Below are positions 4,071 to 60,584 of a stretch of DNA of 64,000 nt, piece after piece. The DNA lies in the NCBI GenBank assembly GCA_001972305.1, contig BDDD01000322.1, positions 186,001-250,000 on the forward strand. Direction: 5' to 3'. The notes beneath the pieces were generated by a model, which did no database searches, was not told the DNA's origin, and saw nothing but the letters and a program-made list of their open reading frames with translations. The first letter of the stretch is position 1. The number at the start of each line of letters is the position of its first letter. A program made the position numbers and the translations under genes. This stretch comes from Cephalotus follicularis (taxonomy: Eukaryota > Streptophyta > Magnoliopsida > Oxalidales > Cephalotaceae).

Positions 4071-4282
4071 AGCGTCAGCATTTATTCCTCAGGCGTCGAC
4101 GCTTATGTGTCTCAAGCGTCACAGTTTAATCCCTTAGAGTCAGCACTTTCAGTGTCTGGGCGTCGATCTCTCTTCCTTTGAATGTCAACGTTTAAGCGCA
4201 TTTCAATATATATACACGCAGTTCACAGCGTTAAGCGTTGACGGTCATTACTTAGGCGTCGATGGTTTCAGGCGGGGGTCGT
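4071..4282. repeat. GCGTCGACGC-type palindrome cluster, G1 LTR middle
   Basis: One perfect GCGTCGACGC (4093-4102) lies among degenerate copies (GCGTCAGCA, GCGTTGACG, GCGTCGATG). Spacing is irregular, so it is not a satellite. Confidence 0.75.
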
Positions 4283-5021
4283 CTTCTACCTCACAACATG
4301 ACTATACAGTGACATTTCCATGCATAAAACATGCATTCCAAAAGGTAGTAAGAACAGAAAACGGCCATGCAATATCATATGACACATCCAGCACAAGGTA
4401 GCATCATTTATCATCAAACCATGAAATTCATGCATAAACATCACTGAGAAACATTAAGTATTGAACACGAAACTACAATTATGGCTTCCCCTACCTCTGG
4501 CCTCAAGTTAGAAGCCGAAAGTCCACCTCTTTTAGTATCCAAGAAGTCACTTGTGTCCCCAGGTACGGCTTAGAAGCTCCCTGGTTCATCCTAGCAGTTG
4601 GTGTGCAAGCTCCAAGCTTCCTTGCTCAACAATGGAGGTTGGGTTCCTTTCTCCGTCACTCTCTTATTTCCTTGCCACTCACAGTGTCATTGATTCTCTG
4701 GATTTCTGTAACAGAAGGGAGGGGTGAGAGGAGTAGGTATATTATGCAAAAAGTTTTTGTTTCCTTCTGCCAAAACCCACCAGATTAACTCCTCCCCTTC
4801 ATGCAGAACAGGTGCAAAAAGTGTCATTCTCTTCCTCTTCACAGGCCATGCACTGAAGGATTCTCCCTCTATCCCATGCCCCGTTGTTGCAGGTATGTCT
4901 GGCAACAAAAGGCATGCAAGCCACGTTCTTAAAAGCATGTCAAGATGCTTGATAAATGGAAAGAAATCACCTCCCTGCGACACGTTCATCTGCTGTTATG
5001 AATGTGCAGAACACGCCGCAA

Positions 5022-5125
5022 AACGTCGACGTTCACATACAGGCATCGGCAATTATGTGTTGAATTTAAACGGCCGTTTCAACGGCTTAAGCGTCGACGC
5101 TCCAAGTCCAGGCGTCAACGCTTGA
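5022..5125. repeat. GCGTCGACGC-type palindrome cluster, G1 LTR 5' end
   Basis: Copies include AACGTCGACGTT, AAGCGTCGACGCT and GGCGTCAACGCTT. The cluster lies about 190-295 bp from the LTR start, matching the position of the 5'-end cluster in G2. Confidence 0.75.
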
Positions 5126-5316
5126 ACCCCAAAACTGTGCCACTTTAACTGAATTACACCTTTAACATTTTTCTAACAAAAGGACTCCAATTTCTACATC
5201 ATCAGAGTTTGGGAAAACATCACCAAATTCGGAAAATTCATCTTTTTATTAATTCCACAATTCAAAAGTACAAATACATTGTGAAATTACAATACATGAA
5301 AATCTTAGGCGTTACA

Positions 5317-6487
5317 TTTTTACTCTTCCTTATCTCACCTGCATCTCCACCCTCCGTTACAACTTTAAATGTTCTTCTCTTGTCATTAATTCTTTTGCTT
5401 AAACACCCCATTGTTTCCCTGTTCCATTTAGATAATCCTCCTCTGCACTTCCTGATCTTGGTTAACATCCCATACACCCCTTGATTACCATTCCCCTCAT
5501 GCCACACACTATTGATAATATCTTCACAACTTTTATCCTTAACCCACATGGATTCAAATCTTGTGACTCTCCGCCTCCCTTTCTTAGCTTGTGGGTGGCA
5601 ACTAGGGCCAAATGCATAGGACAGTGGTCAAAAATCCCACTAGCCTCGTGACAGACAACAGCCCTAGGGAACCATGACAACCATTTAGGATTTACCACAC
5701 CTGTCTAGCCTAATTCGAATTCGCTCCTCACCATATCCTCCATTACTCCACGTAAAATGACACCCTCGATAACCAAGGTCCTTCAATCCACAATAATCTA
5801 AGGTCTTCCAGAAGTTATCAATTTGGTTGCTACTTCTCGTATTGCCACCCTCCTCATCCATACACAATATCTCGTTAAAGTCACCCATGCAAAGCCACGG
5901 GATGTTACTTTGTGAAGCCAAGGTACGAAGCATTAATCATGTTTCAAGTTGTCTGAGCCTCAGGATTACCATAAATACCAGTGAGCCTCCGTTTACCTAC
6001 TCTTTCCATCAGTTGTATCTCCGCGTTAATATGACTTAGGGAGTAGGACCTTATAAGTAAGTCCAAATCCTCCTCCCATAAGAGTTCCAACCCACCTTTT
6101 CTCCTATTAGCATTAACAGAAAAACAATTCTTATATATTGACTTTATTCTAACCGCCTCCATCTCCTGGCTTGACAACTATGTCTCGGAGAGAAAGACGC
6201 AATTGGAGGATAGGTTCTTATGGGGCCTAAAGGACCTCAAACTGATCTTGGGTTCCCCAGCCCATGACAGCTCCACCCAATGTAACTCAGTAGGAGCAGC
6301 AATACTGGTTCTCGCCAGCCACCGCCGATATTACTTGAGGAGAGATTTCTTGTGTATAGTTATCCTTTTTAGCTTTCTTTGGGTTGGTTCCAGACCTAGA
6401 TAACAACCTCTTCTTAGCTTTTGGACTAACCTTCTTCTTACTGCTTATGACATCCCGAACCCATAAGGGCTCCATGACATCACCCAA
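5317..6487 (-). pseudogene. LINE (non-LTR retrotransposon) endonuclease fragment
   Basis: Successive minus-strand segments match the apurinic-endonuclease-like domain of plant LINE ORF2. They are a linker with PLWVRDV (6487-6287), a segment with GGLELLWEEDLDL (6177-5944), WLCMGDFNEIL with the catalytic GDFN motif (5933-5685), RIRLDRC, FDHCPM as a variant of the SDH motif (5698-5462), and a region before RT with LSKWNRETMG (5549-5317). The frame shifts several times. The RT domain should follow but is missing, because G1's LTR starts immediately at 5316. The endonuclease would nick target DNA for target-primed reverse transcription; this fragment is dead. Confidence 0.8.
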
Positions 6488-6755
6488 ATCTGTTCAATCA
6501 CTTATATATGGTACTAGTAAGTCTATTCCCAACAATAAAAAACTATGAAAACTTAAAACTTTAACAATATGTGCTTGTGTCCATTCAAATACATCTTAAA
6601 CTTTAATACAGTATGTTACAATCCAAAATCTTTCACACTTCCCTACAGTCCGAACTCATAATAATACCTTACAATCCTTAACATGAAAATCCTTAACATA
6701 TAACAAATGAAAACCCATACAGTTTAATACTTACGCTATAAGAACCATAATCAGC

Positions 6756-7555
6756 TGTTAGATTAGGGGTGTATCTGTAAGTCACGAGGTGGCCAGTTGT
6801 ATATGTATTACACTCCTTGTATATACAATCTTAGTTCCATTTATATTAAACTATGCAATTTTCCAGAGTTATGGCATAGCTATATATATATATATATCCC
6901 ATTATTATTATTGTTTATCAGTTTAATTTATATATATTGACTGAATACACATATAGCGTCCTGTCGCTCAAAGGGTTGGATGTCATGCCAGGGAGGCTAT
7001 GAGAACGACTTCCTTACTCCCTTTTTGACAAAATGTTCCAAGTCGTAGATTCACTTTCTTAGCGAAATTGATGAATCGGATAGGCTTGCTGTGTTATGCT
7101 TGCTCCTAGGTTCAGTGGAGGGTGGATCATCTCATTGCCACTTGGGGTTTACCCCTAATGCTAATACGGGGTGCATGCTGGGAGCGTGTTCACTGAACTG
7201 ACCCACTATATCCTTACCTGTGTCAATAGTGATTCCTATTGTATTGGTAGTGTATAGTCACTAGGTGACTAGTAGGCCATATGTGACCTGCATTATTCCT
7301 TAGGCCTGAGCGGCTGGCATGCATTGTGTAGTAACTGCCTGACTTTGATTTTCGCCTTACCCAGCTCTAGCCACGAGCTAGAAAACGGGTTGTCTTTGGG
7401 CCTTATGGGAGCTATATTGATGTATGGACGAGTGCTACACGGGATCATCACACTCGTAGTGAGGTGATTGGCTCTATAATATCTATGTCCATTGCAGACT
7501 CGAAAAAACTTGGCCTGGTGTAGGTGGACTGGACATTGGGTTTTCGGGGAGGTCT
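6756..7555 (+). repeat. Truncated Ty1/copia LTR (5' part)
   Basis: It starts TGTTAGATTAGGGG at 6756. Its body is homologous to the C2 LTR (compare 6970-7550 with 16240-16850 and 34800-35410; shared phrases include GTTGGATG, TAGGTTCAC-like text and CTTGGCC). It also resembles the C1 LTR read on the minus strand (9190-9560). It breaks where C1 begins at 7556, and its 3' part is not found on the far side of C1. The stretch 6488-6755 before it shows nothing recognisable. Confidence 0.7.
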
Positions 7556-9758
7556 TGTTGGAACCCGGGGTGGGTCTAGGATGCAAGTGTCTATAATTTT
7601 AATCTTTCAAAAATACCAAGACACGAAGTCAAGGTACACACTTACATCTTACTGCCATAATCTATGTGCCTAGGATCTCCGTTTAATATTCAATCAAACA
7701 AAATGAAAAGTCAAGCATACATCCACTTAACCGAAACCAATTCGGTAAACAATAAACATAAAAGATTAGGAACCATACCAATGTTGGCAGCTCCATCACT
7801 ATGCTGATACACACTTGCCGAAACAACTGACAGTTTCTGGATAGTCCACAAAAATTCAACCAAGACACCAACGGACTCCAAAAAACACGGTCTACCCATT
7901 TCAAGCAGAGACATGTCGGGAAGCCCCTTGGACGACGGTGAACAGCGGCGGTGACTCACTGAGTTTGCACTCAGTGCGTCTCGGTCAATGCGTCATAGAC
8001 AGAAGAAGGCATATGTGAACGACAACACACCGATAAACCCACTGGTGGCCAAGACTCGTCGTGACTCGGTGAGGAACGCCAAGCCAAGGCGCACAGAGAG
8101 TCGACTCGACAGAGTCGACTCAGCAAACACATATCCGGTCATAAACGCACCGAAAAACGCTGGGAAAAGCCTAATCTAGGGTCAAGGTGGGTAGATCCAA
8201 AGCTTGGCTCCACCTACGGTGACTGTCGGCGGTGGAAGAGAAGCCGGCAGTGGGAAGACGCGAAAAAGCGTCTGGCCAAAACACAAAGAGAGAGAGAGAA
8301 AGAGAAATGGGGAGAGAGAGAGAGAGAGGAGAGTACCGTGGATGAGAGGATAACTCCTTTACCGGCCATCGGCACCAAGCTCACCGTCTTCTCAGGCCTG
8401 GAAACGCGTCGCAAGGAACAAAGCACGAGTAGCGTGCTCTGTCTCTCTCTCGCCTCTCGCCTGTTACACGCCCGTGGGCAATAGGCATGTGTAAAAATTG
8501 ACAAAGTCAATTCTTGCACAAAAGGACAAAAGTCCTTTTAATTATTCTCTTTTATTATAACATAAAGAAAGTTTCTCTCTTAGTTTAAATTATGATCACC
8601 CCACACATGGTATGTCGCAACATACTCCCACTGTGGTTTCTCTAAATATATCAATTTGACAATACGGTGGTAAATTTAAATAAATAAATAAACAACTAAT
8701 GCCAAATTAATTTATACTAGTTAAAACTAGATTTTCTGCCAAGCTAGCATGTGTGTAGCATGCATCACTTTTCCAATAATCAAGTGGGACCTGAAAGCCC
8801 GGTTTGAATCCGGTACGACTATAAATATCCCAGAACAGCCCAGGAGTTCTGGTACGACCACCCTGAAAGTCCCTGACTATCAGAATGACCACGGTGTGAA
8901 TCCCATCACACCCTGGATCCATAGAATAAACTACGTCTATAAGTCGACATCCGGTAAACCAGTACTTTATCCAGTCATCGGCATGTGTCATGTATCCTAC
9001 GTCATACTTGGCTCTGACCGCGACCTAGGGTTCGGAATAATGTCACCTCTAGGTAAAGTCGAGATAACTATAAATTCATGTACGCATTGAGACTTTCGGC
9101 AAACATCCCTGGAAACCCCGTTTCCAGTCTGCCTATACCTGATCATGGTTTTATGAGTCTCAACGGACATAAATAATATAGAGCTGATCACCCTGCATAT
9201 GGGTGTGACGATCCCTTATTGCGAACTCGCCCATACATCTCAATGAAGATCCCACATTGCCCAAAGACAACCCTTTTGCTAGCGCGTGGCTAGTGGGATA
9301 AATCCAAATGGTAACGAGATAATCCATCCTCCACTAAACCCGGTAGCAAGCATAATACGGCAAGTCTTTGCGGTTCAACAATTGCCCGAAGAAAGTGAAC
9401 CTATGACTTGGAACGTTCTATCATAAGGGAGTAAGGATCTCATTCTCATAAGCTCTCAGGCATGAGATCCAACCCCTTGAACAACAGGGCACTATATGTG
9501 TACTCGGATGACATGGTGATCACTCGATCCATTTAAGATGGTTTGGGATATACATATAGCGGGTTCCCATTGTTGATTAAATATGCACTACTAAACATGA
9601 AAAGGAATTCAGATTGTAGAAATAGATAGTGTAATATACACACATGCAGCCACCCCACAGCTTAAAGAGATATCTCCAGTTAAGGAGTGCATCTCATACA
9701 TACATATATATTTGTGCAGAGCCATCTCGTGGGATGCAGGGACACCCCTACTCTAACA
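7556..9758 (-). repeat. C1 3' LTR (left copy, 2203 bp)
   Basis: In element orientation it starts TGTTAGAGTAGGGG at 9758 and ends GGGTTCCAACA at 7556. The minus-strand polypurine tract (CCAAGTGGGAGAT) adjoins 9758. It contains two perfect GAGTCGACTC palindromes and a GA-rich run at about 8285-8334. The part at 9190-9560 is homologous to the C2 LTR. Confidence 0.85.
8098..8121. repeat. Pair of GAGTCGACTC palindromes in C1 LTR
   Basis: Two perfect 10-bp palindromes (8098-8107 and 8112-8121) are separated by 4 bp. They share the GTCGAC core found in the other clusters of this window but have GA/TC flanks. A further inverted repeat (ACTGAGT...ACTCAGT) lies upstream near 7955-7975. Confidence 0.8.
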
Positions 9759-9774
9759 ATCTCCCACTTGGCCC

Positions 9775-13430: not shown

Positions 13431-13439
13431 AATAGAGTG

Positions 13440-14846: not shown

Positions 14847-14848
14847 CT

Positions 14849-15720: not shown

Positions 15721-16041
15721 TCCATTACGCATGCCCCGAAGCATGTCTTGAAAACTAATCAATCCATTCATATCATATAACCATTCTCCAAAAAGTGCTA
15801 CAAATTTAAAATTTTTATCAATCATATCACATCAGCGGAACAATCAATTGAAATAAATACTAACTCTTACAAGCTCCCAAAAATTGGGCATGTAGTATTC
15901 TTTTATTGGACTATGCCCCCTATAAAGAAAAACACATTTATATATCCACACTCCCGAAGGAGGAATCAACAGTTTATAAATGGGCTTAGTCCTCAGAAGA
16001 CCATAAGTCAATAGAATTACATCATCCTAGAACCTCAAGTG
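15721..16041. other. Unassigned stretch, no gene seen
   Basis: This is AT-rich text between the gypsy remnant and the C2 target duplication. I see no coding frame, RNA gene or LTR boundary. It may be the tail of the same decayed gypsy element or unique flanking DNA. Confidence 0.5.
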
Positions 16042-16046
16042 ATGAA

Positions 16047-18290
16047 TGTTAGATAGGGTGACCCGACAAGCCATTGGATGGACTTTTGTATCGAACTTAT
16101 CTGTGTATATAAACAGTCTTTTTCCAGATATATGACACGTGCTAGTTTTTTTATATGTTTTATGGCAATATCACTTGTGTTTTATCACATAATCGAAGTA
16201 GCTAATATAAACCTACTTACGCTTCTGATGCCCTGGCATAAGGTTGGATGCAAAGCATGGAGGCATGGAGATTAGCTACCTTATTCCTTATGTCAAATTA
16301 GTTACAAGTTATAGGTTCACTTTGTGGGCATTAGTGAACCGGATAGACTTGCGCGTATGTTGCCTGCTTTGGAATTGGAGGATGGATTCTCTCACTAACA
16401 TCTGTGTTGGGACACTAGGGCAAATATGGGGTGCGCGTTGGGAGTGTGTACATTGAACTAGACCCGCGTAGGAGACACGATTTGGATAGTCGCTATTCAC
16501 GTGTCGGCAGTGACTCCTACTTATTGCGGTTGTGTATAAGTTCTAGTCACTTAGAGAGTTTTCGAACTCGTCTGATCCTTAAACCTGAGCGACTACTCTA
16601 TATTGAATGGAGACGGTTATGCTTTGTTCTCCACCTTACCCAGTTCTTGCACAGGGTTGGCAATCGGATGGTCTTTGGGTATGATCGAATCTATACGAAT
16701 ATAAGTGAGTGCGCAATATGGGATTGTCACTCCTGAGCGAAAGTGATCGGCTCTAATATGGTCTGATTATACTTTGGACTTATGAAATCCTTGGCCAAGG
16801 TTGAGGTGGATTGGAAATTAGATTTCTGGAGAGTCTACCAAAGGTCCTAGTAATGATCAGATATTTTAGACATTGAGGTATTATCTAGAGTTGACACGTA
16901 TCCTTACCCTAGACCTCAATTGGAGCCAAGTATGACGGGGATTAGAGTATACGTGAACCGATGACTTAGAAAATCTAACGTTACGGCGGTGTGTAATAAA
17001 TTATGGGAAAATTAATTAGATTAATTTTTTCCATTTGGATAATATTGGATATTATTCTAGGAGCATTAAAATAGGCCTAAGACTATTTAGAATGGCTTAA
17101 CAAAACCCTAGGGGCTTTTCAATAATTTATGAACACCACCGATAATAACCATGATTTTATAGGGTCCCTGCCCGATAATGATTAGTTGATAAATATGTTG
17201 GACATATTTAAGTCTTGGTGAAAAATAGAAAATCAAATATCGGTTAGGTGGATTTTGCAATTTATGGAGACACATTTGTTTGATCTTACTTAATCAATAT
17301 TCGAAGGGATATGTGGCATCACTAAAATGAGTAGGACATATTTAAGTGTGAGTTGGACTCAAAGTGCTTGACCAGCCCTCTAAGCGTCAACCTTTTTTAG
17401 ATAAGCGTCGATGCTTAAACCCCATCTAAGTGTCAATGCCTTTTGGTAAGGCGTCAACGCTTAAGTCGTCTAGGCGTCAACGCTTTTGAAAAGCGTTGAC
17501 GCTTATAGTGGTAACCTGGGTGTCCTACACGGGCACATCACAGGCGCATGTTTTCTCTCTCCCACTCCCAGCAATTTCCACATCTTAGAAAGTGGAAATG
17601 ATCACATTGAGATCATGGGATCATGCTTCATTAGAGGTAGCGCCATGATCCAAGATGTGTGCAAGAGTGGGGTAGTGGGAACAAAAAAGAGAGAGAGAAA
17701 ATGGGGTTGGCATAAAAATGGGTTTTTGACAATGCTGGGCATTTTTGAGTATGTGTGACCTCTCTGCACATTGAGTATTCCTTCTCTTATTATACACCAA
17801 GCAAGTGACTTATCTAGGGTGGATTGTTATTGACAACACTTTTCAATTTCAATCTTCTCTTTGTAAACATTGTGAGAGAGAGATATACAGTGACTATTTT
17901 CATTCCTTGCTGGGCTAGAGTTGCTGGTTTTCGGGTCTGTAGTTGCTGGCTTTTTGAAGCTTGGTGACTCAGAGGAACTTGAAGTTTCAAAGGGTATCTA
18001 CTCAAGCTAGTAGAGGAAAAGAACGAAGGAGCCATTACCGTTGGTATGACTCCATGTTCATTTCCATGTTTTACCATGCTTGTGTGTCACCATTGCATGC
18101 GATGGTGACACCAATTCAACTCTTGTTATTGATGTGGTGATCCGTGTGGCTTGTGTCCTTGGCATTATGGACTGGTTTTACTTTGTTAAGGGTATGTTTT
18201 CACTGCCTTTTATGTATTTTTAAGTTATGTTCTACACCTTTTTACCCCTTGTCCATTTTGGCACCGGAAATGGTTTTACTGTTTTCAACA
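16047..18290 (+). repeat. C2 5' LTR (2244 bp)
   Basis: It begins TGTTAGATAGGG and ends TTTTCAACA, directly before the primer site. It aligns along its length with 34613-36624 plus 48148-48386, which shows that the later break in the 3' copy is an insertion. It holds a GCGTCGACGC-type cluster ending in a near-perfect 14-bp-arm inverted repeat (17474-17502). Confidence 0.92.
17381..17504. repeat. GCGTCGACGC-type palindrome cluster in C2 5' LTR
   Basis: Copies of GCGTCAACGC, GCGTCGATGC and GCGTTGACGC occur about 1335 bp from the LTR start. At 17474-17502, GCGTCAACGCTTTT is followed by one base and then its exact reverse complement. The equivalent repeat in the 3' LTR is 36042-36070. Confidence 0.8.
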
Positions 18291-18291
18291 G

Positions 18292-18607: not shown

Positions 18608-18765
18608 TTAAGCGTCGACGCTTTTGGTATAAGCGTCGACGCTTGTCTTACTGTGTTCATATTGCGCTGGCGCCTTGGCATAGCGTCGACGCTAATTTGA
18701 GTTTTATGTTTTTGCGCCTTAGACGTAAGCGTTGACGCCTTCTGGGAAAGCGTCGAAGCTTTAGT
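18608..18765. repeat. GCGTCGACGC palindrome cluster in C2 leader
   Basis: Two perfect 14-bp AAGCGTCGACGCTT copies (18610-18623 and 18631-18644) are followed by AGCGTCGACGCT and degenerate copies. The cluster lies outside the LTR, about 320 bp after it. C3 has a cluster at a similar leader position. Confidence 0.85.
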
Positions 18766-21375: not shown

Positions 21376-21380
21376 GCACC

Positions 21381-21640
21381 GATGTCCATTATTAGACGTC
21401 GATGTCTTTGTCTCTCAGCGTCGACGCTCAAGTCCTTAGCATCAGCGCTTTCCACTGTTGAAGACATCGATGTCCATCTTTGTACGCATCGACGCTCAAA
21501 GTATGGAACCTTAAACGTCAGAGTTTTGCTTAAAACATCGACGCGTTAAGGTAGGGACCTTAGGCGTCGATGTATAATATGTCAATATCCAAGCAGATAA
21601 CCCAAAGGCGTCGATGTTCCTAAAAGGTGACGACGTGTTT
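21381..21640. repeat. GACGTCGATGTC/GCGTCGACGC cluster, G2 left LTR middle
   Basis: Copies include GACGTCGATGTC, GCGTCGACGCTC and GCGTCAGCGCTTT-like text. The cluster is homologous to 27986-28240 in the right LTR. Confidence 0.78.
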
Positions 21641-22569: not shown

Positions 22570-22735
22570 ATGTTACGCATCGACGTCTTCTTTAGACGTC
22601 GACGTCCTTGCCCTTTTTACACGAGAGAATCGATGTTCTCGCCCGCATCAACGTGCATTTGCATGCAGTTACGTGCGTCTCTTTGTTTCCAAGGCATCGA
22701 TGCGTTCAAAAGGGTGTCGACGCGTTTCTCCCAAA
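22570..22735. repeat. Palindrome cluster, G2 left LTR 5' end
   Basis: Copies include GCATCGACGTC, GACGTCGACGTC, GCATCGATGCG and GTGTCGACGCG. It lies about 180-345 bp from the LTR 5' end at 22916 and is homologous to 29185-29335. Confidence 0.78.
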
Positions 22736-48147: not shown

Positions 48148-48386
48148 CCATGTTCTTTTCCATGTTTTACCATGCTTATGTGTCACCATTGCATGCGATG
48201 GTGACACCAATTCAACTCTTGTTATTGATGTGGTGATCTGTGTGGCTTGTGACCTTGCCATTATGGACTGGTTTTGCTTTGTTAAGGGTGTGTTTCCGCT
48301 GCCTTGTATGTATGTTTAAGTTTTGTTCTACACCCTTTTACCCCTTGTCCATTTTGGCACCGAATATGGTTTTACTGTTTCCAACA
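48148..48386 (+). repeat. C2 3' LTR, last part (239 bp)
   Basis: It continues the C2 LTR after C3 (equivalent to 18050-18290) and ends TTTCCAACA, followed by the ATGAA target duplication. Confidence 0.92.
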
Positions 48387-48531
48387 ATGAACATGTAATA
48401 TCCAGTTTCATTGCCTATATGCTTGACGTGTCATATGTTATGTTCGATTTATGTTATCTATTATTCAGAATATTTGAAATTGTTTTTGAAAACTCTTTTA
48501 TTTCTTTTCTTTCTTTTTGCATTTTTCGGGT

Positions 48532-48620
48532 GTCAAAAGTGTCGACGCCATTGTTTTAACATCGAAGCTTTGACAGAAAGGCTAAAGTGCTGACGCATTC
48601 GATTAACCGTCGACGTTTTA
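48532..48620. repeat. GCGTCGACGC-type cluster, G3 first LTR 5' end
   Basis: Copies include GTGTCGACGCC, ACATCGAAGCTTT and CCGTCGACGTTT. The second LTR (55866-55950) keeps less decayed versions such as GCGTCGACGCC. Confidence 0.75.
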
Positions 48621-49389
48621 GTCGTCTTCCATATTTGTTTTGGATGGTGACTTGTTTTTGGAAAGGAAGATTCTTGCCATTTTCGTTTATCCGATTATCC
48701 TTTAGTGTTGGACGCGTTTTCTGCTAAAAGGAAAGTTCTTAATCCACCGATTTTTGCCATCAATTGCACGATCTCATCTTTGTTTTAAAACTACAACACC
48801 TGCATGTTTATACAAACCAGAAAAGCCATTACCTGCATATTTACAAACCAACATAGCCACTTTGTCCCCTTCGTTATTCATTGTTTTGGCTTCAACCGAA
48901 GGTATTTTGTAAACAAAAGCTTTAGTTTTCGTGATATATTACTGATATTCATCATTAGATTATACAAAACATGTTAGAAATCATTTTGATTATGAACTTT
49001 AGAGGCCTTGTTTTAAAGAAAATTTCTGCCATGATTCAACCTATAAATTTATATGTTTATGCATTAATACTGTTATACTGGTGTTTTAAACAAAGGAATC
49101 ACGTTTTATGACATACCTACTTGTCTTGATGTATTATGATAAGCAAAATGGATTTGGTGCATAATTTTCAATTGATTGATCGACTGTTTTAAAATTTTGT
49201 AAAGACCAGAAAATATCTTTTAACAAATCGATATTGCTTCATGTAACCTGTATATGAGTATGATTACACAAAGAAATGTTATATTGGTACTTTGCAACCA
49301 TAGAAGACATGTTTTACAAATTGCATACTGCTGTTTTGTTGGATTATTTCAAAGGAAAAATGGATTTTGAAACTGTTTTTATCACCCAG

Positions 49390-49690
49390 TTCGTCTTAAG
49401 AGTCGACTATTTTTCATTCCTATCGACGCTTATACCCTAACTATCGACGCTTTGGTTGTGTGTTATATGTAAGCGTCGATGCTTTCATAGTGTTTTGGCA
49501 TGCATACCGTCTACGCTTAGTTGTGTGTTGTCATGTTGCCGTCGATGCTTTAGTAGTGTTTTGCAATGCATTACTTCGACGCTTTGTACAGCACCTTGTG
49601 TTAACGTTTAGCCTAAAAGCGCCAAAGCTTTGTATTAAAAGGTCGACGCTTTTGGATATATACGTTGACATTTCGGAAGCATGTGTTTTA
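49390..49690. repeat. GCGTCGACGC-type cluster, G3 first LTR middle
   Basis: There are about ten copies, for example AAGCGTCGATGCTTT, TATCGACGCTT, CCGTCGATGCTTT and GGTCGACGCTTTT. The 3' arm GACGCTTT is better kept than the 5' arm. Confidence 0.8.
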
Positions 49691-50934
49691 ACGTCTGTTT
49701 CATTGTGTATTCGGTTTGGTTGATCTGTCTAGGTTTCGTTAATTTCTGTGGTGGAGGTTGGGGTGTCCCAAGTGTGCTTTTAATTCGTTTTTGGTTTGTT
49801 TAGACTTGGACAGCTAAGGTACGGATGTTCATTTCTTGATATTCATTCGGTTTTATGAATTCTGTTATGTTTCGGATTTTGATATGTTTTTTAAATTAAG
49901 TCAGCTTTAATATTTTTATGAAATTGAATATTTTTGACTTTATAAAATCAGCTGTGATTCATGATCATCTCTTGTATTGTGAAATTAAACGAGTTGATTT
50001 CCGATTATGAAAATATGTGCAATGTGAAATTATATCTTTTGATAACGATTTTAGGATATGTTCGGAAAACCTTTTTATATGTGTTTTAAATTGATTATCA
50101 TAAAAATCAATGTTTTTGAAATGGTGAAGTACTGAGTTTTTGTACCCACCTATGGGCGTACCATAGGCATGTCCTTTGGCACGGAGGCATGACACTTTCC
50201 GTGGCGGTGTGATTAGTCCATGGCATCTCTCTATGTTCTGATATCCTCTGTGGAGGATTATGGATCCGTTATTTGTGATAGAGGCGTATGGATCGATCCT
50301 AGAAATATGTGATATGATATGTTGTGAGAATTAATTGTGTAGTGAAATACACGTCATTTCTATTTGACATGTGGACGTCGCGAATCCCTTACTTATATGT
50401 GTTATGATATGTGATATGTTATGATGCTCAGTATGGAACTTTATGTTTTGAAAGTTATGGATTTGGTTTATATGAAAATTACTAAGGTAATTTATAAATA
50501 ATGTTTAATTTTATTATTGGTTAAGATTTCTATCTTTGAGTTTATTTTGAAATCTTACTATCATTTAAAATTATCGTTTACTGCTTTTACATTCTATATC
50601 CGTATGGAGGTTTGCTAAGTCGCGTTTTTCTTTCCATGTGGCAGGTTATCAGGATGATCTAGAAAATGTGTGATAAGAGGGTACCTCATGTCTGAGGATC
50701 ATCTAGGAGTTGGACCTATTATGTTTCTGTTGTTTTATGGTCATGATTAGGCAAGTTTTATAAACAATATATTTTTTTTCAGATTATGTTATGACTTTCA
50801 GTTTATGATTTTTGACATCAGATTATGTTTTTAGACCACCACGTTATGAATAAAGTTAAGTTTTATATTTTGATCTGTTCTGTTATGTACGTATGTCCTG
50901 TAAGCGCTCACACCTTCGGGTGTGTTACAGATTA

Positions 50935-50945
50935 TGGTATCAGAG
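50935..50945 (+). other. G3 primer-binding site (tRNA-iMet)
   Basis: TGGTATCAGAG lies 5 nt after the first LTR. Confidence 0.88.
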
Positions 50946-51102
50946 AATAGGTTTTGTTCCTTAGAATACTTAACTGGGTTTAACCTGTGAGATTGGGTAG
51001 ACTTTGGGTTAGGACTATTTTCATTACGGACATTTAGATATGTCTTTTGTTTCAGCTTTCTGATTCCTTTTGTCTTTATCTTGTCTTGGTCTCTGTGTGT
51101 AG

Positions 51103-54100
51103 ATGGTACGAACAACGAACACCCCTCAGAAAACTGCAACTGTTGGGACTCGAGAAGAGGTTACAAATGACCCTTCTGGACGAGTTGGTGCGGCAGGCTG
51201 TCGCTCAAGAGGTGAATCGAGTGATGCAAAAGCAAAATCAGGGACAAGGTTGCCGAGAGCAAGTCGCTGAGGAGAATGCACCAGCTGATGTTACGGCTGA
51301 TGAAGGAGCTGGGGACCGGCCCGACAATCCAGTTTAAGTCTGGCTTGAGAGGTTCCAACAGCATACACCGCAATCTTTTTGTTCAGCAAAGACACCTATG
51401 GAGGCTGAACACTGGATTGCGCACATGGAGAAAATCTTTGATGTTCTGGGATGTAGTGATGATCAGAAGGTGAAGCTAGCTCCTTATAGATTGGACGGAG
51501 ATGCTCAAAGATGGTGGAAGACTTTGAGAATTGCTAAGGGCGGAGGATTCATTGATGCTTTGTCTTGGTCTGGTTTTTGTGAGATCTTCTATCAGAAGTA
51601 TTTTCCCAATGCTGATAAGAAGGCCAATGCTTGGGAGTTTGATACTACGAGGCAGAAGGAGGGTGAGTCAGTCACTGAGTTCTTGGTCCAGTTCACCAGG
51701 TTGGGAGGCTTTGCTGAACCTGCGACGGGGTCGACATTGGGGCAAGCTGAGAAGTTCAAATAGAAGCTGCACTATCAACTCAGGGGTAAGCTGATAAATA
51801 CAAGATTTGCTGATGTATATGATGTTGCAAATGCCGCAAAGAATATAGAGATGGAGAGATTGGACTTCCAGGCAGCATGCCAAGAGAGGACAAAAAAAGA
51901 ACAAGATGCAAGACAACTAAACAAGAGGCAAGGCAGTCCATGGAATAAGGACCAAAATGGTAAGCAGCACAAGAAGGATCACAATTGGAATAGGGATGGA
52001 GGACAACAGCGTCAGCAGGGTAATGATCAGAGGCAAGTCCAGGGAGCTGGTGGTGGGGGTAACCCTAATGTTCAAATTGCTCAATGTGATATATGTGGTA
52101 GGTAACATGTAGTCAGAACCTGTTATAAGGCCAATGGGGCCTGCTTCATATGTGGTTAGATGGGTTACTTTGTGAAGGATTGCCCTGAACCTCGTGCAAA
52201 TGATAGGAGAGGAAACGGGGCTGATGTTGGGCAACGTAACGTGGGAGGTAGAGTGTTCGCCATGACGACGCATCAGGCTGCGAATGCTCAAGGTACAGTT
52301 TTGGGTTTTCTTTCTGTTGCTAGCCATAGGGCTTATGTATTGTATGATACTGGATCGACTCATTCTGTTGTGGCAAGATCTTTTGTTCTCTATATTGTTG
52401 TGCCTTTTCAGTCTATGGATCTAGTTATGGTTCTTTCTACCCCTATGGGTACTTCTGTTGTTGTATCAGAGTATTTTTGTGATTGCCATGTTACGTTCGA
52501 TGAAAAAGTTTGTTAGGCGGACCTTCTTCCGATCGATATGCATGATTTTTAAATGATTCTTGGCATGGATTGGTTGGATCGCCATCGTGCCATGATTTAT
52601 TGTCACGCTCGAAGGATTTTGGTAGGACATGTGGATAGACCTGATTTTATTTATCAGGGTTCACGGTCGAAGAAGAATGTCAAGGTTATATCAAATTTGA
52701 AGGCTCAGAAGTTGGTGGCTAAGGGCGCTGATGGATTCTTAGCTAATGTGAAAGATGTCTCTAAGGATGAAACTCGCCTTGAGGATTATCCTGTGGTTAG
52801 AGAGTTTTTAGATGTGTTTCCGTAGGAGTTACCGGGATTGCCACCGTAACGAGAAGCGGTGTTTGCCATCGAACTCATTCCTGGGGTGGGACCTATATCA
52901 AAAGCACCTTATAGGATGGCACCGCTTGAGTTACAAGAGTTGAAGGAGCAATTGTAAGAAATGTTGGATCGAGGTTTTATCCGACAGAGTGTTTCGTCAT
53001 GGGGTGCTCCGGTCTATTTGTGAAGAAAAAGGGCGGTTCTATGAGGCTGTGCATAGACTACAGAGAGCTAAATCATATTACAATCAGGAATAAATACCCT
53101 TTGCCTCGGATTGATGACTTATTTGATCAACTCAAAGGTGCACGATATATTTCTAAGATAGATTTGAGGTCTGAATATCATCAGTTATGGGTAAAGGATG
53201 AAGACGTACCTAAGACTATTTTTCACACACGGTGTGGGCATTTTGAGTGTTTGGTGATGCCGTTCAGAGTTACTAATGAGCCAGCCGTCTTCATGGATTT
53301 GATGAATCGGGTTTTTCATGAGTTCTTGGACCAGTTTGTAATTGTATTTATAGATGATATCATGGTGTACTCGAAGTTGAAGGAAGAGCACGAAGATCGG
53401 CTTTGTATAGTGCTGGGGATCTTGACGAAGAATCAACTATATGCGACGTTTTCAAAATGTGAGTTCTGGTTGGAACATGTGGCATTCTTGGGCCACGTGG
53501 TTACAGCGAAAGGTATTAGTGTTGATCCTGCTAAGGTTGAGGCTATTACTAAATGGTCGAGACCTACCACAGTGACGGAGGTTAAGAGTTTTCTGGGTTT
53601 GGATGGTTACTATAGGCGGTTTGTGGAAGGCTTTTCCTCGATAGCCTTGGCTTTGACTCAGCTTATGAGAAATGGAGCCAAATTCGAGTGGAATGAAGAA
53701 CGGGAGGCAAGCTTTGAGAAGTTGAAGAATGGTCTTGTGTCTGCGCCAATTCCTCATTTGTCATCTGGGTCAGGTGGATTCCAGTTATACAATGCTGCTT
53801 CCAAGAAGGGTTTGGATTGTGTTATGATGCAACACGGTCATGTCATAGCTTACGCTTTGAGACAACTTAAGCCTTATAAAGTGAATTACCCTACACATGA
53901 CCTTGAGTTGACGGCTGTGGTTTTTGCATTGAAGATATGGAGGCACTATTTGTACGAAGAAACTTGTGACATTTTCACCGATCACAAAAGTCTAAAGTAG
54001 TTTTTCACTTAGAAAGAGTTGAATATGCGGCAGACGTGGTGGTCGGAGCTTCTGAAAGATTATGATGTTAACATTCAGTACCACAAAGGTAAGGTGAATG

Positions 54101-55680
54101 TGGTAGCCGATCCTCTTAGTAGGAAGAGTTCTAGGAGTTAGCGGCTTTGCTTACTCAATCGCAGTTGATTTTGGATACGGAGCGGCTAGATTTCAATTTG
54201 TTTGTTCGGGGTTCTGGAGGTTTTGTTGCTAGGATCACCGTAGAACCTACCCTTATATCTCTGATTAAGGCGGCTTCGAGTGATGATGGTGAGTTATGAG
54301 CCTTAGTCCAGAATGTTGATGAGGGTAAGCAGTCCGAGTTTCGTGTGGATTAGAAAGGTATTATATGGTTGGGTAGTCAGTTGTGTGTGCCGGCTGATCT
54401 TGAAATCCGAGAGGCCGTTTTGTCTGAGGCACACAGCTCTCCATTCTCTATACATCCCGGTTCTACGAAAATGTATAGAGACTTGAAGAAGAATTTCTGG
54501 TGGAATGGGATGAAGAGGGATGTAGCAGAGTTTGTTGGAAGGTGTTTGGTCTGTCAGTAGGTCAAGATCGAACATCAGCGAGCTAGTGGATTGTTGCAAC
54601 CCTCAGAGATTCCAGTGTGGAAATGGGATAACATAGCCATTGATTTTGTTACGGGTTTGCCAAGGACTTTCAGGAGGAATAATGCTATTTGGGTAGTGGT
54701 GGATCGATTAACCAAATCGGCTCACTTCATGGCTATTGGAGAGGATTTCTCTTTAGACTATTTGGCAGAGGTTTTCCAGCAGGAGATAGTGAGACTTCAT
54801 GGGACACTGGTATCCATTGTTTCGGATAGGGATCCCCGTTTCACTTCGCGGTTTTGGAAAAGGTTTCAGAAGAAGTGGGGCACGCGACTCAATTACAGTA
54901 CAGCTTTCCGCCCACAAACAGATGGGAAGTCTGAGAGGATTATCCAGACTTTAGAGGACATGCCGAGGTCTTGTGCTTTCGAGTGGACTGGATACTGGGA
55001 TGAATATTTGAGCTTGGTGAGGGTTTACCTACAAAAACAGTTGGCATGCTAGCATTCAGATGGCGCCTTTTGAGGTGTTGTATGGGAGGAAGCATCGAGC
55101 TCCGACATGTTAGGATGAGGTAGGAGAAAGAGTTATAGAGGGACCTGAGCTGGTTCAGATCACTACTGATAACGTGAATGTAGCTAGGGAAAGATTGAAG
55201 GCAGATGAATCCAGAAAGAAAAGTTATGTAGATAAACATCGGAGGGACTTGGAGTTTAAAGCAGGTGAACATGTATTTCTGAAGCTTTCATAGAAGAAAG
55301 GAGTCCGTCGGTTTGGGTTGAAAGGGAAGTTGCGTCCTCGGTTTATAGGACGCTTTGAAGTTCTAGAAAAGTTTGGCGCAGTTGCTTATCGATTAGCTTT
55401 GCCTCCACAGTTAGCACATGTCCATAATGTGTTTCATGTGTCTATGTTGATGGGTTATCAGTATCATCCTATTCATGTGGTCCAATATCCTTTGGACAAG
55501 ATTAGAGAGGATTTATCTAATGAGGAGGAGGCGGAAGCTATTCTTTATCGACAAGAACGGGTTACGCGTAGTAAGACCATTCCTTTTGTTAAGGCCTTGT
55601 GGAAGAATCAGCCGGAGAGTAAGGATACATGGGAATTGGAGGGGCACATTCGGGAGCAATTCCCTTGCTTGTTTGATTGA
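51103..55680 (+). pseudogene. G3 gag-pol (gypsy chromovirus), multiple stops
   Basis: ATG at 51103 (MVRTTNTPQ). Gag core is in 51398-51763 (RWWKTLRIAKG). The zinc-knuckle region near 52085-52190 has two in-frame stops. Protease has LYDTGSTHS (52340) and ILGMDWLDRH (52556). RT is 52999-54000 with [10 protein letters not shown], the FIDD active site at 53347-53358, and an E in place of the usual G in DLRSEYHQ; RNase H ends at a stop at 53998. The integrase zinc-binding segment ends CLVCQ at 54560. The core at 54591-55052 keeps the catalytic D (DFVTG), D (SDRDPRF) and E (GKSERIIQ). The C-terminal domain and a chromodomain-like end (TIPFVKALWKNQ) run 55318-55680 with stop TGA. It is clearly related to G2 pol but has a different gag. 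Confidence 0.9.
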
Positions 55681-55718
55681 GGTATGAGGTTGTTTATGAT
55701 TCTGGGATGAAATCCTTT

Positions 55719-55731
55719 ATAAGTGGGGTGG
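55719..55731 (+). other. G3 polypurine tract
   Basis: The purine-rich TAAGTGGGGTGGA lies immediately before the second LTR. Confidence 0.75.
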
Positions 55732-55865
55732 ATGTAATATTCCGTTTTGTTGCCTACATGCTTGACGTGTCATATGTTATGTTCGGTTTATGTTATGTGT
55801 TATTTTGAATGTTAGATATTTTTTTTTGAAAACTCTTTTATTTCCTTTCTTTCTTTTTGCATTTT

Positions 55866-55950
55866 TTTGGCGTCAAAAGCGTCGACGCCATTGTTTTAAC
55901 ATCGACGCTTTGACACAAAGGCTCAAGCGCTGACGCCTTCGATTAATCGT
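55866..55950. repeat. GCGTCGACGC-type cluster, G3 second LTR 5' end
   Basis: AAAGCGTCGACGCC, ACATCGACGCTTT, AAGCGCTGACGCC and TCGTCGACGCTTT occur within 85 bp. Confidence 0.8.
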
Positions 55951-56724
55951 CGACGCTTTAGTCGTCTTCCATATTTGTTTTGGACGGTGACTTGTTTTTG
56001 GAAAGGAGGATTCTTGCCATTTTTGTTTATCCGATTTTTCTTTAGTGTTGGACGCGTTTTCTGCTAAAAGGAAAGTTCTTAATCCACCGATTTTTGCCAT
56101 CAATTGCACGATATCATCTTTGTTTTAAAACTACACCACCTGCATGTTTATACAAACTAGAAACGCCATTACCTGCATATTTACAAACCAACACAACCAC
56201 TTTGTCCCCTTCGTTCTTCATTGTTTTGGCTTCAACCGAAGGTATTTTCTAAATAAAAGCTTTAGTTTTCGTGATAGATTACTGATATTGATCATTAGAT
56301 TATACTAAACATGTTAGAAATCGTTTTGATTATGAACTTTAGAGGCCTTGTTTTAAAGAAAATTTCTGCCATGATTCAACATGTAAATTTATATGTTTAT
56401 GGATTAACACTGCTATACTAGTGTTTTAAACAAAGGAATCTCGTTTTATGACATACCTACTACTGTATTGATGCATTATGATAAGAAAAACGGATTTGGT
56501 TCATAAATTTCAACTGATTGATCGACTGCTTTAAAATTTTGTAAATACCAGAATATATGTTTTAACAAATTGTTATTCATGTAACTTGTATATGAGTATG
56601 ATTACACATAGAAATGTTATACTGGTACTTTGCAACCATAGAAAACATGTTTTACAAATTGCATACTACTGTTTTGTTGGTATATTTATAAGGAAAACTG
56701 GATTTTAAACTGTTTTTATTGCCC

Positions 56725-57015
56725 AGTTCGTCTTAAGCGTCAACTGTTTTTCATTCTTATCGACGCTTATACCCTAACTGTCGACGCTTTGGTTGTGTGT
56801 TATATGTAAGCGTCAACGCTTTCATGGTGTTTTGTCATGCATACCATCGACGCTTAGCTGTGAGCTAACATGTTGCTGTCGACGCTTTAGTAGTGTTTTG
56901 CAATGCATTGCTTCGACGCTTTGTGCAGCGCCTTGTCTTAACGTTTAGACTAAAAGCGCCAGCGCTTTGTATTAAAACGTTGACGCTTTTGGACATATAC
57001 GTTGACGTTTTGGCA
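56725..57015. repeat. GCGTCGACGC-type cluster, G3 second LTR middle
   Basis: There are about ten copies, including AAGCGTCAACGCTTT, CTGTCGACGCTTT, AAGCGCCAGCGCTTT and ACGTTGACGCTTTT. It is homologous to 49390-49690, with fewer decayed copies. Confidence 0.8.
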
Positions 57016-58313
57016 GCTTGAGTTTTAACGTCTTTTTAATTGTGTATTCAGTTTGGTTGATCTGTCTAGGTTTCGATAATTTCTGTGGTGGAGTTTAGGG
57101 TGTCCCAAGTGTGCTTTTGATTCATTTTTGGTTACTTTAGACTTGGACAGCTAAGGTTCGGATGTTCATTTCTTGATATTCCTTCGGTTTTATGAATTCT
57201 GTTATGTTTCAGATTTTGATTTGTTTTGGAAATTAAGTCAGCTTTAATATTTTTGTGAAATTGAATATTTCTGACTTTATAAATTCAGCTGTGATTTGTT
57301 ATAATCTCTTTTATTGTGAAATTAAATGAGTTGATTTCCGATTATAAAAATATGTGTTGTAATGTGAAATTATATTGTTTGATATCGATTTATGGATATG
57401 TTCGTAAAACCTTTTTATAAGTGTTTTAAATTGATTATCATAAAAATCAATTTTTTTGAAATTGTGAAGTACTGAGTTTTTGTACCCATCTATGGGGTGT
57501 ACCATAGGTATGACCTTTGGCACGGAGGCATGACACTTTCCGCGGCAGTGTGATTAGTCCATGACGTCTTTTTATGTTATGATATCCTTTGTGGAGGATT
57601 ATGGATCCGTTATTTGTGATAGAGGCGTATGGATCGATCCTAGAAATATGTGATATGATATGTTATGAGAATTGATTATGTAGTGTCGTACAAGTCATTT
57701 TTATTTGGCATGTGGACGTCGCGAATCCCTTGCTTATATGTGTTCTGATATGTAATATGTTATGATGCTTAGTAGGGAAATTTATGTTTTTGAAAGGTAT
57801 GCTTTATGTTTTGAAAGTTACGGATTTGGTTTATACAAAAATTACTGAGGTAATTTATAAAAAATGTTCAAATTGATTATTGCTTAAGATTTTTATCTCT
57901 GAGTTTATTTTGAAATCTTACTATCTTTTAAAATTATCGTTTACTGCTTTTACATTCTATATCCGTACTGAGGTTTGCTCAGTCGCGTTTTTGTTCCCAT
58001 GCGGCTGGTTATCAGGAGCATCGGGGGAAATGTGAGATGATAGGGTACCCAGTGTGTGAGGATCTTCTAGGAGTTGGACCTATTATGTTTCTGTTGTTTT
58101 ATGGTCATGATTAGGCCAGTTTTATAAACAATTTTTTTTTTTGGATTATGTTATGCCTTTCAGTTTATGATTTTCAGATTTTGATTTTTGATATCAGATT
58201 ATGCTTTAGACCACCATGTTATGAATAAAGTTAAGTTTTTTATTTTGATATGTTCTGTTATGTATGTATGTATGTCCTGTAAGCGCTCCCACCTTCGGGG
58301 GTGTTAAAGATTA

Positions 58314-58324
58314 TGGTATCAGAG
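58314..58324 (+). other. G3 second primer-binding site
   Basis: TGGTATCAGAG lies 5 nt after the second LTR, identical in context to 50935-50945. Confidence 0.88.
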
Positions 58325-58481
58325 AATAGGTTTTGTTCCTTAGAAGACCTAACTAGGTTTGACTTGCGAGATTGGGTAGACTTTGGGTTAGGCCTATTTT
58401 CGTTGCGGTCATTTCGATATGTCTTTTGTTTCAGCTTTCTGATTCCTTTTGTCTTTATCTTGTCTTGGTCTCTATGCGTAG

Positions 58482-59452
58482 ATGGTACAAACAAGGAACA
58501 CCCCTCAGAGAACTGCACCAGCTGGGGTCGGGAAGAGGTTAGAAATGAGCCTTCTGTGGATGAGTTGGTGCGGCGGGCTGTCGATCAAGAGGTGAATCGA
58601 GTGATGAAACAGCAAAATCAGGGACAAGGTCGGCGAGAGCAAGTCACTGAGGAGAATGCACCGGCTAATGTTCCGGTTGATGGAGGAGATGGGGACCGGC
58701 CCGACACTCCAGTTTATGTCTGGCTTCAGAGGTTCCAAAAGCATAGACCGCAGTCTTTTAGTTCAACACCGACACCTGTGGAGGCTAAACGCTGGATTGC
58801 GCGCATGGAGAAAATCTTTGATGTTTTGAGATGTAGTGATGATCAAAAGGTGAAGCTAACTGCTTATAGATTGGAGGGAGATGCTAAAAGATGGTGGAAG
58901 ACTTTGAGAATTGCTAAGGGCGAAGGATTCATTGATGCTTTGTCTTGGTCTGGTTTTTGTGAGATTTTCTATCACCAGTATTTTCCCATTGCTGATCAGG
59001 AGGCCAATGCTTGGGAGTTTGTTATTACGAGGCAGAATGAGGGTGAGTCAGTCACTGAGTTCTTGGCCTGGTTCACCAGGTTGGCGGGCTTTGATGGACC
59101 TATGGCTGGTCGGCATTGGAGCAAGATGAGAAGTTCAAATGGAAGCTGCACTATCTGCTCAAGGGTAAGCTGATAAATACAAGATTTGCTGATGTATCTG
59201 ATGTTGCAAATGCCGCAAAGAATATCGATATGGAGAGATTAGAATTCCAGGCAGCACGCCAAGAGGGGGATAAGAAATGAAATAGAAATAAACAAGATTC
59301 CGGACAACAGAACAAGGGGAAAGGCGGTCCATGGAATAAAGGCCGAAATGGTAAGCAGCACAAGAAGGATCACAATCAGAATAGTGATGGAGGACAACAA
59401 CGTTAAAAGGGTAATGATCAGAGGCAAGATCAGGGAGCTGGTGGGGGTAACC
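58482..59452 (+). pseudogene. G3 second gag copy, truncated by G4
   Basis: ATG at 58482 (MVQTRNTPQRTAP) is out of frame with the main gag frame (about 58540-59173) through a small indel near 58525-58545. The gag core RWWKTLRIAKGEG and GESVTEFLAWFTRL follow. Another shift occurs near 59105, then the basic linker. It stops just before the zinc knuckle, where G4 starts at 59453. It closely parallels 51103-52075 and keeps a tyrosine codon where the first copy has a stop at 51336. Confidence 0.85.
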
Positions 59453-59596
59453 TGTAATGCCCGAGATTTTCGTTAAGGAGTAATATTGTATTTACAATAT
59501 AATTTACGCTTTGAATTAATGAGAATTATGGCTTTTCCATTTTTGTAACGTTAAACTGGGCAAAATTGAAGTGTGGAAGTGCTGATGCAGGGCGGG

Positions 59597-59732
59597 CAGC
59601 CGACTGCCCATGAGGGACAATCGACTGGACCCCCTTGTGTAAAACCAGCAAACTGCTGTGGGAAGCAGCCGGATGGAGGTGTGTCGGAAGAGACAGCCGA
59701 CTGCCGGGTCTAGGCAATCGACTGTCGACAAG
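59597..59732. repeat. CAGCCGACTG palindrome cluster, G4 LTR 5' end
   Basis: CAGCCGACTG occurs at 59597-59606, with AATCGACTG and further CAGCCGACTG copies. It lies about 145-280 bp from the LTR start. Confidence 0.83.
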
Positions 59733-60275
59733 TCAAGCAGCATAACGTGCGCGCTAGACTGTTGACAGAAGTGGGGTGTGTTTTTATGTGGGTATCAGCG
59801 AGAGAGAGAAAGTGAGAGAGAGCCGTGTTTTCCTCCATAAAAGACACGATTTCTTCCTCCAATCTTCACCATTTTCGCAGATAGGAGAAGAGAGAATCAA
59901 AGTGTGGAGAGGAAGAGGAGGAAGTGCATGTGTTGTGGATCCAAAGAGCCTTGTGTTGAGCTGTGGTTTTAGGAAGCATGGACCAGTGGCGAGAACCGGA
60001 TCTGTTGGAGTTGCTAGACGGATTCAGAGACTTGGAAACTCGGATTGGAACTTAGAAAGGTGGATTGCAATTCCTAACTTGGAATTCTAAGGTAGGGGTA
60101 AATCTCATAATTGTTATTTTAGTTCCGTTATAATGGAAGTTAATGGACGAAATGCATGCTAAGGATTGTATTATGAGCATAAATGTGTGTTATTGATGTT
60201 GAATGCTCGTGTTTGGTTGGATTGAAGTGTGAAAGACATGCATTTTTCTGCTGTTTTTGCCTACTGGTATAAATC

Positions 60276-60584
60276 CAGTCGACTGCCAAGGCTGGCAGCC
60301 GACTGGCGAGCAAGGACAGCCGACTGTTAAGTGCGAACAGCTGGCTACTCAATGGGAAACAGCCGACTGGACGTAAGAACCAGTCGACTATTCATACGTT
60401 TAATAGAACACATCTGCAGAAGGTTGTGTAGTCGACTGCCTTTTGAGGGCAGCCGACTGGACGAGGTAGACAATCTACTGGACGGGGGAGACAGCCGACA
60501 GTTAAGGGAGGCAGCCGACTGCCAAAATTAGGACAACATACTGTTGTAGGAAAACAGCCGACTGTCAAGAGACACAGCCGACTG
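60276..60584. repeat. CAGTCGACTG/CAGCCGACTG cluster, G4 LTR middle
   Basis: Roughly a dozen copies occur between CAGTCGACTG (60276-60285) and CAGCCGACTG (60575-60584). Many are followed by GCC or GGA. Variants keep the central CG and the CAG/CTG arms. Confidence 0.88.

Follow-up and report, generated by a model that had tools for sequence, protein, structure and literature searches.

The stretch analysed here, in the following called the window, comprises 64,000 nt of Cephalotus follicularis contig BDDD01000322.1 (positions 186,001 to 250,000 of the forward strand). Based on a BLAST comparison of the window with itself, Pfam matches and primer-binding sites (PBS), we found it to be a nest of long terminal repeat (LTR) retrotransposons, made up of the gypsy elements E0, E2, D and E3 and the copia elements E1 and B (Table 1). 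Several element borders are approximate, and the borders between LTR, leader and coding regions were set by us. The LTRs and leaders carry arrays of short palindromic words, which are the subject of this analysis. Neither Rfam families nor tRNAs were found in the window.

The initial annotation had described these arrays as clusters of palindromes with a GTCGAC core and self-complementary flanks of three types. All three types are present. GTCGAC is the most over-represented palindromic hexamer of the window (41 versus 5.5 expected), and its 41 copies compare with a mean of 5.7 (maximum 15) in 300 dinucleotide-preserving shuffles. With self-complementary arms of two nucleotides on either side, 17 copies remain, against a mean of 0.39 (maximum 3) in 300 shuffles. 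For comparison we used 20 loci of 10 kb each (numbered with an L in the following), on contigs picked by hand across the assembly and not at random by length. Taking the window and these loci together, the arms are self-complementary at 53 of 127 GTCGAC sites, compared with 18.3 if the two arms were independent. As the functional unit, GTCGAC alone was rejected: in a 270 kb sample, which includes L001 and L003, both fetched for GCGTCGACGC, two classes of words allow different variants (CAGCCGACTG 26 versus CAGTTGACTG 1; GCGTTGACGC 17 versus GCGCCGACGC 1). The earlier observation is confirmed and extends further than described. The units are wider than GTCGAC, namely RCRTCGAYGY (class I), often framed by AAAG...CTTT, and CAGYCGACTG (class II). 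Both form arrays of 3 to 17 sites, an array being defined as at least three sites with up to one mismatch and neighbours up to 130 bp apart; class II was scanned as CAGYCGRCTG on both strands.

We counted these words throughout the assembly (1,577,397,061 bases in 9,746 contigs), using the same word read backwards as control. The palindromes CAGTCGACTG and GCGTCGACGC occur at 197,377 and 73,186 sites (controls 939 and 121). The class II variant CAGCCGACTG, an imperfect palindrome, reaches 88,572 and 88,820 sites on the two strands, 177,392 in total (control 708 and 622). Variants expected from CpG decay are present for class II (CAGTTGACTG; 10,378 and 10,983, control 2,035 and 2,138) and for class I (GCGTTGACGC; 20,158 and 20,366, control 365 and 325). 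Far rarer than either palindrome is a mixed word with one arm of each class (CAGTCGACGC; 6,335 and 6,380, control 174 and 185). The third type, GAGTCGACTC, is a minor one with 12,797 sites (control 1,517); it also occurs as close pairs 13 to 14 bp apart, in the window (Table 1), at L016:7061-7083 and, among the matches listed, as 13-bp pairs on several contigs. The ratio of observed to expected CpG in the three arrays looked at is 1.59 (L005), 0.55 (L028) and 0.78 (second array of E3). Arrays of class I are found in 13 of the 20 loci, of class II in four and of either class in 15, and arrays of the reversed words in none. Family independence is therefore limited for class II, and the further loci L025 to L029 were not drawn at random but selected for holding class II words. 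A SalI cloning or assembly artefact can be dismissed, as the sites occur in numerous different contexts and, within single copies, in both LTRs.

Within the window, the words are nearly confined to LTRs and leaders. Perfect sites of both classes number 51, of which 45 lie in LTRs and six in leaders, with none in 25.0 kb of coding regions and none in 9.1 kb of other sequence. Allowing one mismatch, 99 of 104 sites lie in an LTR (88) or leader (11), four in coding regions and one elsewhere, compared with 13 reversed words in LTRs and 12 in coding regions at the same threshold. Of the 41 GTCGAC hexamers, 30 lie in LTRs, five in leaders, three in coding regions and three elsewhere. The earlier assignment to both LTRs and leaders is correct in that both hold arrays. 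Some of the supposed leaders are LTR sequence, however, because the primer-binding sites put the gypsy LTRs at about 2.1 to 2.9 kb. Likewise, the palindromes at 40349-40598 exist but do not belong to the leader proper of copia B; they are part of a gypsy-like LTR at this place, which is 70.8% identical to the LTR of D over 880 bp (in the following called the D-like LTR).

That palindromic words are common to gypsy and copia, as proposed initially, holds for each class separately. Class I is hosted by the gypsy elements D, E0, E2 and L021 and by copia E1 (LTR and leader) and B (leader), class II by the gypsy elements E3 and L019, the D-like LTR and copia L028, which has Sirevirus hallmarks. Counting sites with up to one mismatch, a single LTR carries 17 in L028 and in L026, 16 in E3, seven in one LTR of D and six in E0. 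Five gypsy LTRs share a layout of two arrays, of class I in D, E0 and E2 and of class II in E3 and L019 (for L019 at +202 to +279 and +1054 to +1208 from the LTR start). The first array lies at about +145 to +341 in these five, a region that is probably U3.

Neighbouring sites keep a narrow range of distances. In the window and the 20 loci, with second LTR copies removed and gaps of 12 to 130 bp considered, 40 of 58 class II gaps measure 20 to 22 bp and 68 of 154 class I gaps 18 to 23 bp. At the two spacings counted genome-wide, 21 and 25 bp, pairs of class II words number 111,360 for CAGYCGACTG-N11-CAGYCGACTG (55,531 and 55,829, control 165 and 160; perfect palindrome pairs are counted on both strands in this total) and 169 (82 and 87), respectively. 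Class II spacing is mostly head-to-tail: of the two orientations counted genome-wide for CAGCCGACTG at 21 bp, direct pairs number 9,549 and 9,560 and tail-to-tail pairs 270. The 17-site class II arrays of L026 and L028 consist of groups of four, with gaps of 20 to 21 bp within groups and 50 to 65 bp between them. Strict 10.5-bp phasing of all gaps was rejected, the only firm peak being that at 18 to 23 bp. The class II spacers themselves are hardly alike, with a mean best identity of 0.406 within arrays, 0.363 between arrays and 0.325 for random sequence.

Related gypsy LTRs keep the position of an array and change its class. Neither this change nor the 21-bp spacing and head-to-tail order had been noted in the initial annotation. 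The LTRs of E3 and E2 share short anchors before, between and after their two arrays (E3 1-34, 598-646, 1657-1676, 1816-1935 and 2199-2294), which puts the arrays of the two LTRs at corresponding positions although their words differ. The D-like LTR can be aligned with the LTR of D on both sides of its array, over 24 bp upstream (at 39466) and over 880 columns downstream (from 40883). In place of the class I array of D it carries class II, at about +1010 to +1259 when counted from 39340, its presumed start by collinearity.

On balance, we favour the reading that these clusters are cis-regulatory arrays of binding sites in double-stranded DNA for a host protein. Each site would be a CpG-centred near-palindrome of 10 to 18 bp, read by a sequence-specific protein that probably binds as a dimer. 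Sites about 21 bp apart, equivalent to two helical turns, would place the bound proteins on the same face of the helix, from where they may bind cooperatively and drive or gate transcription from the LTR. Binding on one helix face would agree with class II sites keeping a rigid spacing while their spacers are free, with the scarcity of the words outside LTRs and leaders and with words being exchanged at one and the same place. LTRs of both superfamilies would use either the class I or the class II word, and because related gypsy LTRs changed the word at the same place, the array may be a replaceable regulatory module. For class II, the most concrete candidate, and no more than a guess, is a DREB/CBF-type member of the AP2/ERF factors; their core consensus, RYCGAC, fits GTCGAC and GCCGAC. 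Enrichment over expectation in the 20 loci is 4.97-fold for GTCGAC, 2.36-fold for ATCGAC and 1.82-fold for GCCGAC.

Several observations weigh against binding-site arrays. The canonical core of the dehydration-responsive element, ACCGAC, shows no enrichment (0.85-fold in the window and 1.24-fold in the 20 loci), which weakens the DREB/CBF candidate, and AACGAC, outside RYCGAC, is enriched 1.89-fold in the 20 loci. Beyond 18 to 23 bp the helical phase is weak; 120 (class I) and 188 (class II) of 2000 jittered sets reached the observed value. The gypsy LTR of L021 departs from the two-array layout, as its single class I array lies at +703 to +1029 and its two other sites are isolated; the D-like LTR lacks the first array. 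Class I spacers resemble each other (0.651 within arrays, 0.503 between, 0.351 random), mainly via the CTTT...AAAG frame, and among 100 class II spacers, 21 agree with TCACAGGGGAA in at least 7 of 11 positions, where about 2.5 would be expected. Finally, the initial annotation held that the arms are kept better than the surrounding sequence, for which we found no support. Between the two LTRs of one copy (seven pairs), motif identity is 830/889 and spacer identity 3632/3834 (Fisher p 0.12), with the motif lower in six of the seven, so the words are not better kept after insertion.

CpG positions differ most of all in these pairs (39/287 in motifs, 77/421 elsewhere). When CpG and other positions are separated, differences are slightly fewer in the motif than outside it, at CpG positions as well as at the others (20/602 versus 380/8609); we do not claim this slight contrast as conservation. 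Better keeping of the motif is seen in one pair of related LTRs, those of the Sirevirus-like copies L026 and L028 (164/170 versus 306/335 for the spacer, Fisher p 0.04); this speaks for binding sites, and its dependence on a single pair counts against them. The three remaining comparisons between copies come from poor alignments (motif and spacer 0.654 and 0.644 for E1 and L011, 0.477 and 0.436 for E3 and L019, 0.675 and 0.581 for E0 and E2).

How the words came to be in both superfamilies is a separate matter, for which the initial annotation had offered either spread by template switching or recruitment of a shared host factor. The evidence is mixed. That an array moved between superfamilies as a captured segment, by template switching or recombination, is a serious possibility that falls short of probable; it is an account of origin and compatible with any function. 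Two spacers between class II sites, TCACAGGGTAA of gypsy L019 and TCACAGGGGAT of the Sirevirus-like L028, each match TCACAGGGGAA at 10 of 11 positions, and because two LTRs of different superfamilies share a near-identical spacer, some spread of a 31-bp unit is indicated. A single captured segment behind all clusters finds no support: with the motifs masked, 68 arrays, taken from the window and from 25 loci, form 40 groups, and no group holds both classes, although this BLAST comparison cannot detect likeness of 11-bp spacers. With the same insensitivity, it grouped no Sirevirus-like LTR array of L026 or L028 with an array assigned to gypsy; their group includes L005_2356 and L011_9395, which have no assignment. 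The common stretch is short, about 31 bp, and the spacer may be another binding site in its own right. In 314 kb, matches to TCACAGGGGAA at 9 or more of 11 positions lie away from class II sites in 63 cases and near them in nine. Probably, then, a small unit of about 31 bp crossed between superfamilies at least once, or the spacer itself is a site. Since the other class II spacers are hardly alike and their spacing and array position are kept, a common binding requirement is also indicated.

We consider it unlikely that the palindromes act at the RNA level, folding into hairpins in the transcript that feed small-RNA silencing, as proposed for maize Sireviruses, or that help genomic RNAs to pair for packaging. 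The arrays at 18612-18759 (E1) and 38396-38634 (B) do lie in true leaders, palindrome regions of maize Sireviruses are described as gathering small RNAs (PMC10760457), and all four array segments that we folded were far more stable than their shuffles (z -4.62, -4.25, -7.45 and -7.08). Strong folding is, however, expected of any repeated palindromes, and the first array of the five gypsy LTRs probably lies in U3. The substitutions do not favour fold-back pairing of sense RNA, as far as can be judged from few independent families. Read on the sense strand, class II sites have C at position 4, giving a C-A mismatch, in 40 of 71 cases versus G at position 7, which keeps a G-U pair, in seven; these counts stem from five LTRs, of which two belong to the same family, and the trend is opposite in the D-like LTR (1 versus 3). 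The class I core decays with no strand preference (TTGA 5 and TCAA 5 of 86 sites).

Least probable in our view is a purely mutational product. In this scenario, a minisatellite unit of 21 bp would have become duplicated in a small number of ancestral LTRs and been multiplied by retrotransposition, and the words, devoid of function, would look kept only because they are recent. Growth by tandem 21-bp units would yield the rigid spacing and head-to-tail order equally well, which is a further point against protein binding, and amplification would account for the huge copy number. The recurrent spacer word TCACAGGGGAA, the likeness of class I spacers and the lack of better motif identity between the LTRs of one copy also agree with it. 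Against it stand the 40 flank groups, none of them shared by the two classes, the class II spacing kept despite divergence of most spacers, the near-absence of class II pairs at 25 bp, the like offsets in five gypsy LTRs with class change at the same place, and the better-kept motif between the L026 and L028 LTRs.

Returning to binding-site arrays, a wider interpretation is possible but tentative. Two regulatory dialects may cut across the superfamilies, either of them a phased rail with some 10^5 sites. Any gypsy or copia LTR could adopt one dialect or the other, and LTR lineages may switch dialect and keep the position of the rail. The dialects would form a shared host-factor regulon kept by convergent selection, with an arms race against a regulator or silencer of the host as a possible driver. 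Provided that unrelated gypsy and copia elements do share words spaced by two turns, a single host factor may control how active much of the repeat fraction is, and tens of thousands of binding sites would be spread by each burst. The exactness of words, spacing and orientation allows direct testing.

Table 1 Retrotransposons and palindrome arrays identified in the window
Feature	Position	Strand	Arrays and remarks
E0 (gypsy)		minus	left window edge
E0 LTR	2723-5317	minus	PBS 2719; class I arrays 5023-5121 and 4093-4265 (LTR offsets about +197 to +295 and +1053 to +1225)
GAGTCGACTC pair (minor class III)	8098-8121		14 bp apart; just outside the aligned LTR-like repeat 7571-8019
E1 (copia)		plus	3' LTR 34602-36624, continued 48145-48389
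E1 5' LTR	16037-18291	plus	class I array 17405-17502; second copy in 3' LTR at 35973-36070
E1 leader array	18612-18759	plus	class I; about 320-470 bp past PBS (18292)
Solo LTR-like insert in E2 3' LTR	20199-21375		four class I-like sites 20324-20662, one perfect
E2 (gypsy) 3' LTR, part	21376-22917	minus	class I arrays 21376-21617 and 22577-22723
E2 5' LTR	27464-29525	minus	PBS 27460; class I arrays 27985-28245 and 29185-29311 (offsets +215 to +341 and +1281 to +1541)
B (copia)		plus	LTRs about 36625-38186 and 46724-48145
B leader array	38396-38634	plus	class I; about 206-444 bp past PBS-like site (38190)
Array of the D-like gypsy LTR in B leader region	40349-40598	plus	class II, 10 sites (up to 1 mismatch), at the offset where the LTR of D has class I
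D (gypsy) 5' LTR	48393-50934	plus	class I sites at offsets +147 to +224 and +1081 to +1257
D second LTR	55732-58313	plus	class I arrays 55879-55956 and 56810-57008
E3 (gypsy) 5' LTR	59453-61750	plus	PBS 61751; class II arrays 59597-59724 and 60276-60584 (offsets +145 to +272 and +824 to +1132)

Element D (48393-59452) is a partial tandem in which LTR, gag-pol and LTR are followed by a PBS and gag again, truncated by the start of E3 at 59453. The insert at 20199-21375 is about 1.18 kb long, is bounded by TG...CA and an imperfect direct repeat (GCGCC/GCACC), and landed inside a class I palindrome of the E2 3' LTR. At L005:2703-7186, an element with class I arrays in its LTRs has inserted into another class II array, at a class II-like site with the 5-bp repeat AGCTG. 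These two cases hint that arrays may be insertion targets. Elsewhere in the genome, L023:1-10000 is a long, satellite-like tandem array with a period of about 163 bp. Contigs C1035 and C9670 (G000) have Cpn60 matches at identical coordinates, raising the question of a redundant assembly, and C2773:7719-9203 contains one unbroken 548-aa Cpn60 frame, which may be bacterial contamination.

Among known systems, the gypsy insulator of Drosophila is a cluster of Su(Hw) sites in the 5' leader. It resembles the arrays described here as a cluster of host-factor sites in the leader of an LTR element, but it belongs to one family and another kingdom and its sites are not palindromic. The LTR of Rider is described as containing dehydration-responsive elements and a CBF site, with no response to cold (PMC6762207). 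As here, these LTR sites match the cores of host stress factors, but they are several sites in one family, unphased and not spread across superfamilies.

In maize, the palindrome CACCGGACNNNGTCCGGTG forms clusters in copia LTRs with predicted hairpins and small RNAs and also occurs in Helitrons (Martin et al. 2023, PMC10760457). The clusters in LTRs and the predicted folding are as here. Gypsy LTRs carry arrays in Cephalotus, and the maize study notes no obvious structure peak for Ty3 elements.

The closest precedent is found in Sireviruses, for which multiple copies of the polypurine tract (PPT), a C-rich LTR end and a copia gag are given as hallmarks (Bousios et al. 2010, PMC2829016). L028 has all three: four PPT-like purine tracts at 6218-6551, the C-rich CACCCCCCCTCTAG before the LTR end and a Retrotran_gag_2 match (E 3e-27). 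Ten window queries gave no tblastn match in L028, the gag query missing its gag too, and its pol is not seen by these queries. Its LTRs (731-2005 and 6553-7831) are 97.9% alike and each hold a 17-site class II array; those of L026 are 98.6% alike, and the arrays of both loci lie at +165 to +671 of the LTR. Both loci also contain an open frame with Transposase_32 (PF20167), and no pol was seen in either.

Sirevirus LTRs are described as containing palindromic repeated motifs (RM), at least eight and up to 32 per element and mostly in the upper half of the LTR, which are termed Sirevirus-specific and have a CGG-CCG core except in Tnd-1 (PMC2829016). The class II arrays of L028 and L026 fit this description. 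CAGTCGACTG and GCGTCGACGC are dyad-symmetric palindromes, and the 17 sites in L028 and L026 and 16 in E3 exceed eight, with lower numbers in some other LTRs. RM clusters are also expected to form a CpG island; the three arrays looked at here vary in this respect, with observed/expected CpG from 0.55 to 1.59. The words here lack the CGG-CCG core, as does the published Tnd-1 motif, and they share the TCGA centre with the RM of Vitis (CGGTCGACCG) and of Tnd-1 (ACAATCGATTGT). The 21-bp head-to-tail rule has no mention in the parts of the Sirevirus account examined. Unlike the RM as described, the arrays here also lie in leaders, in other copia elements and in the gypsy LTRs of D, E0, E2, E3, L019 and L021; among the matches listed in the open-licence literature, no description of such arrays in gypsy elements was found. 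Palindromic LTR repeats were described as peculiar to Sireviruses, and the arrays found here extend them to Ty3/gypsy elements.

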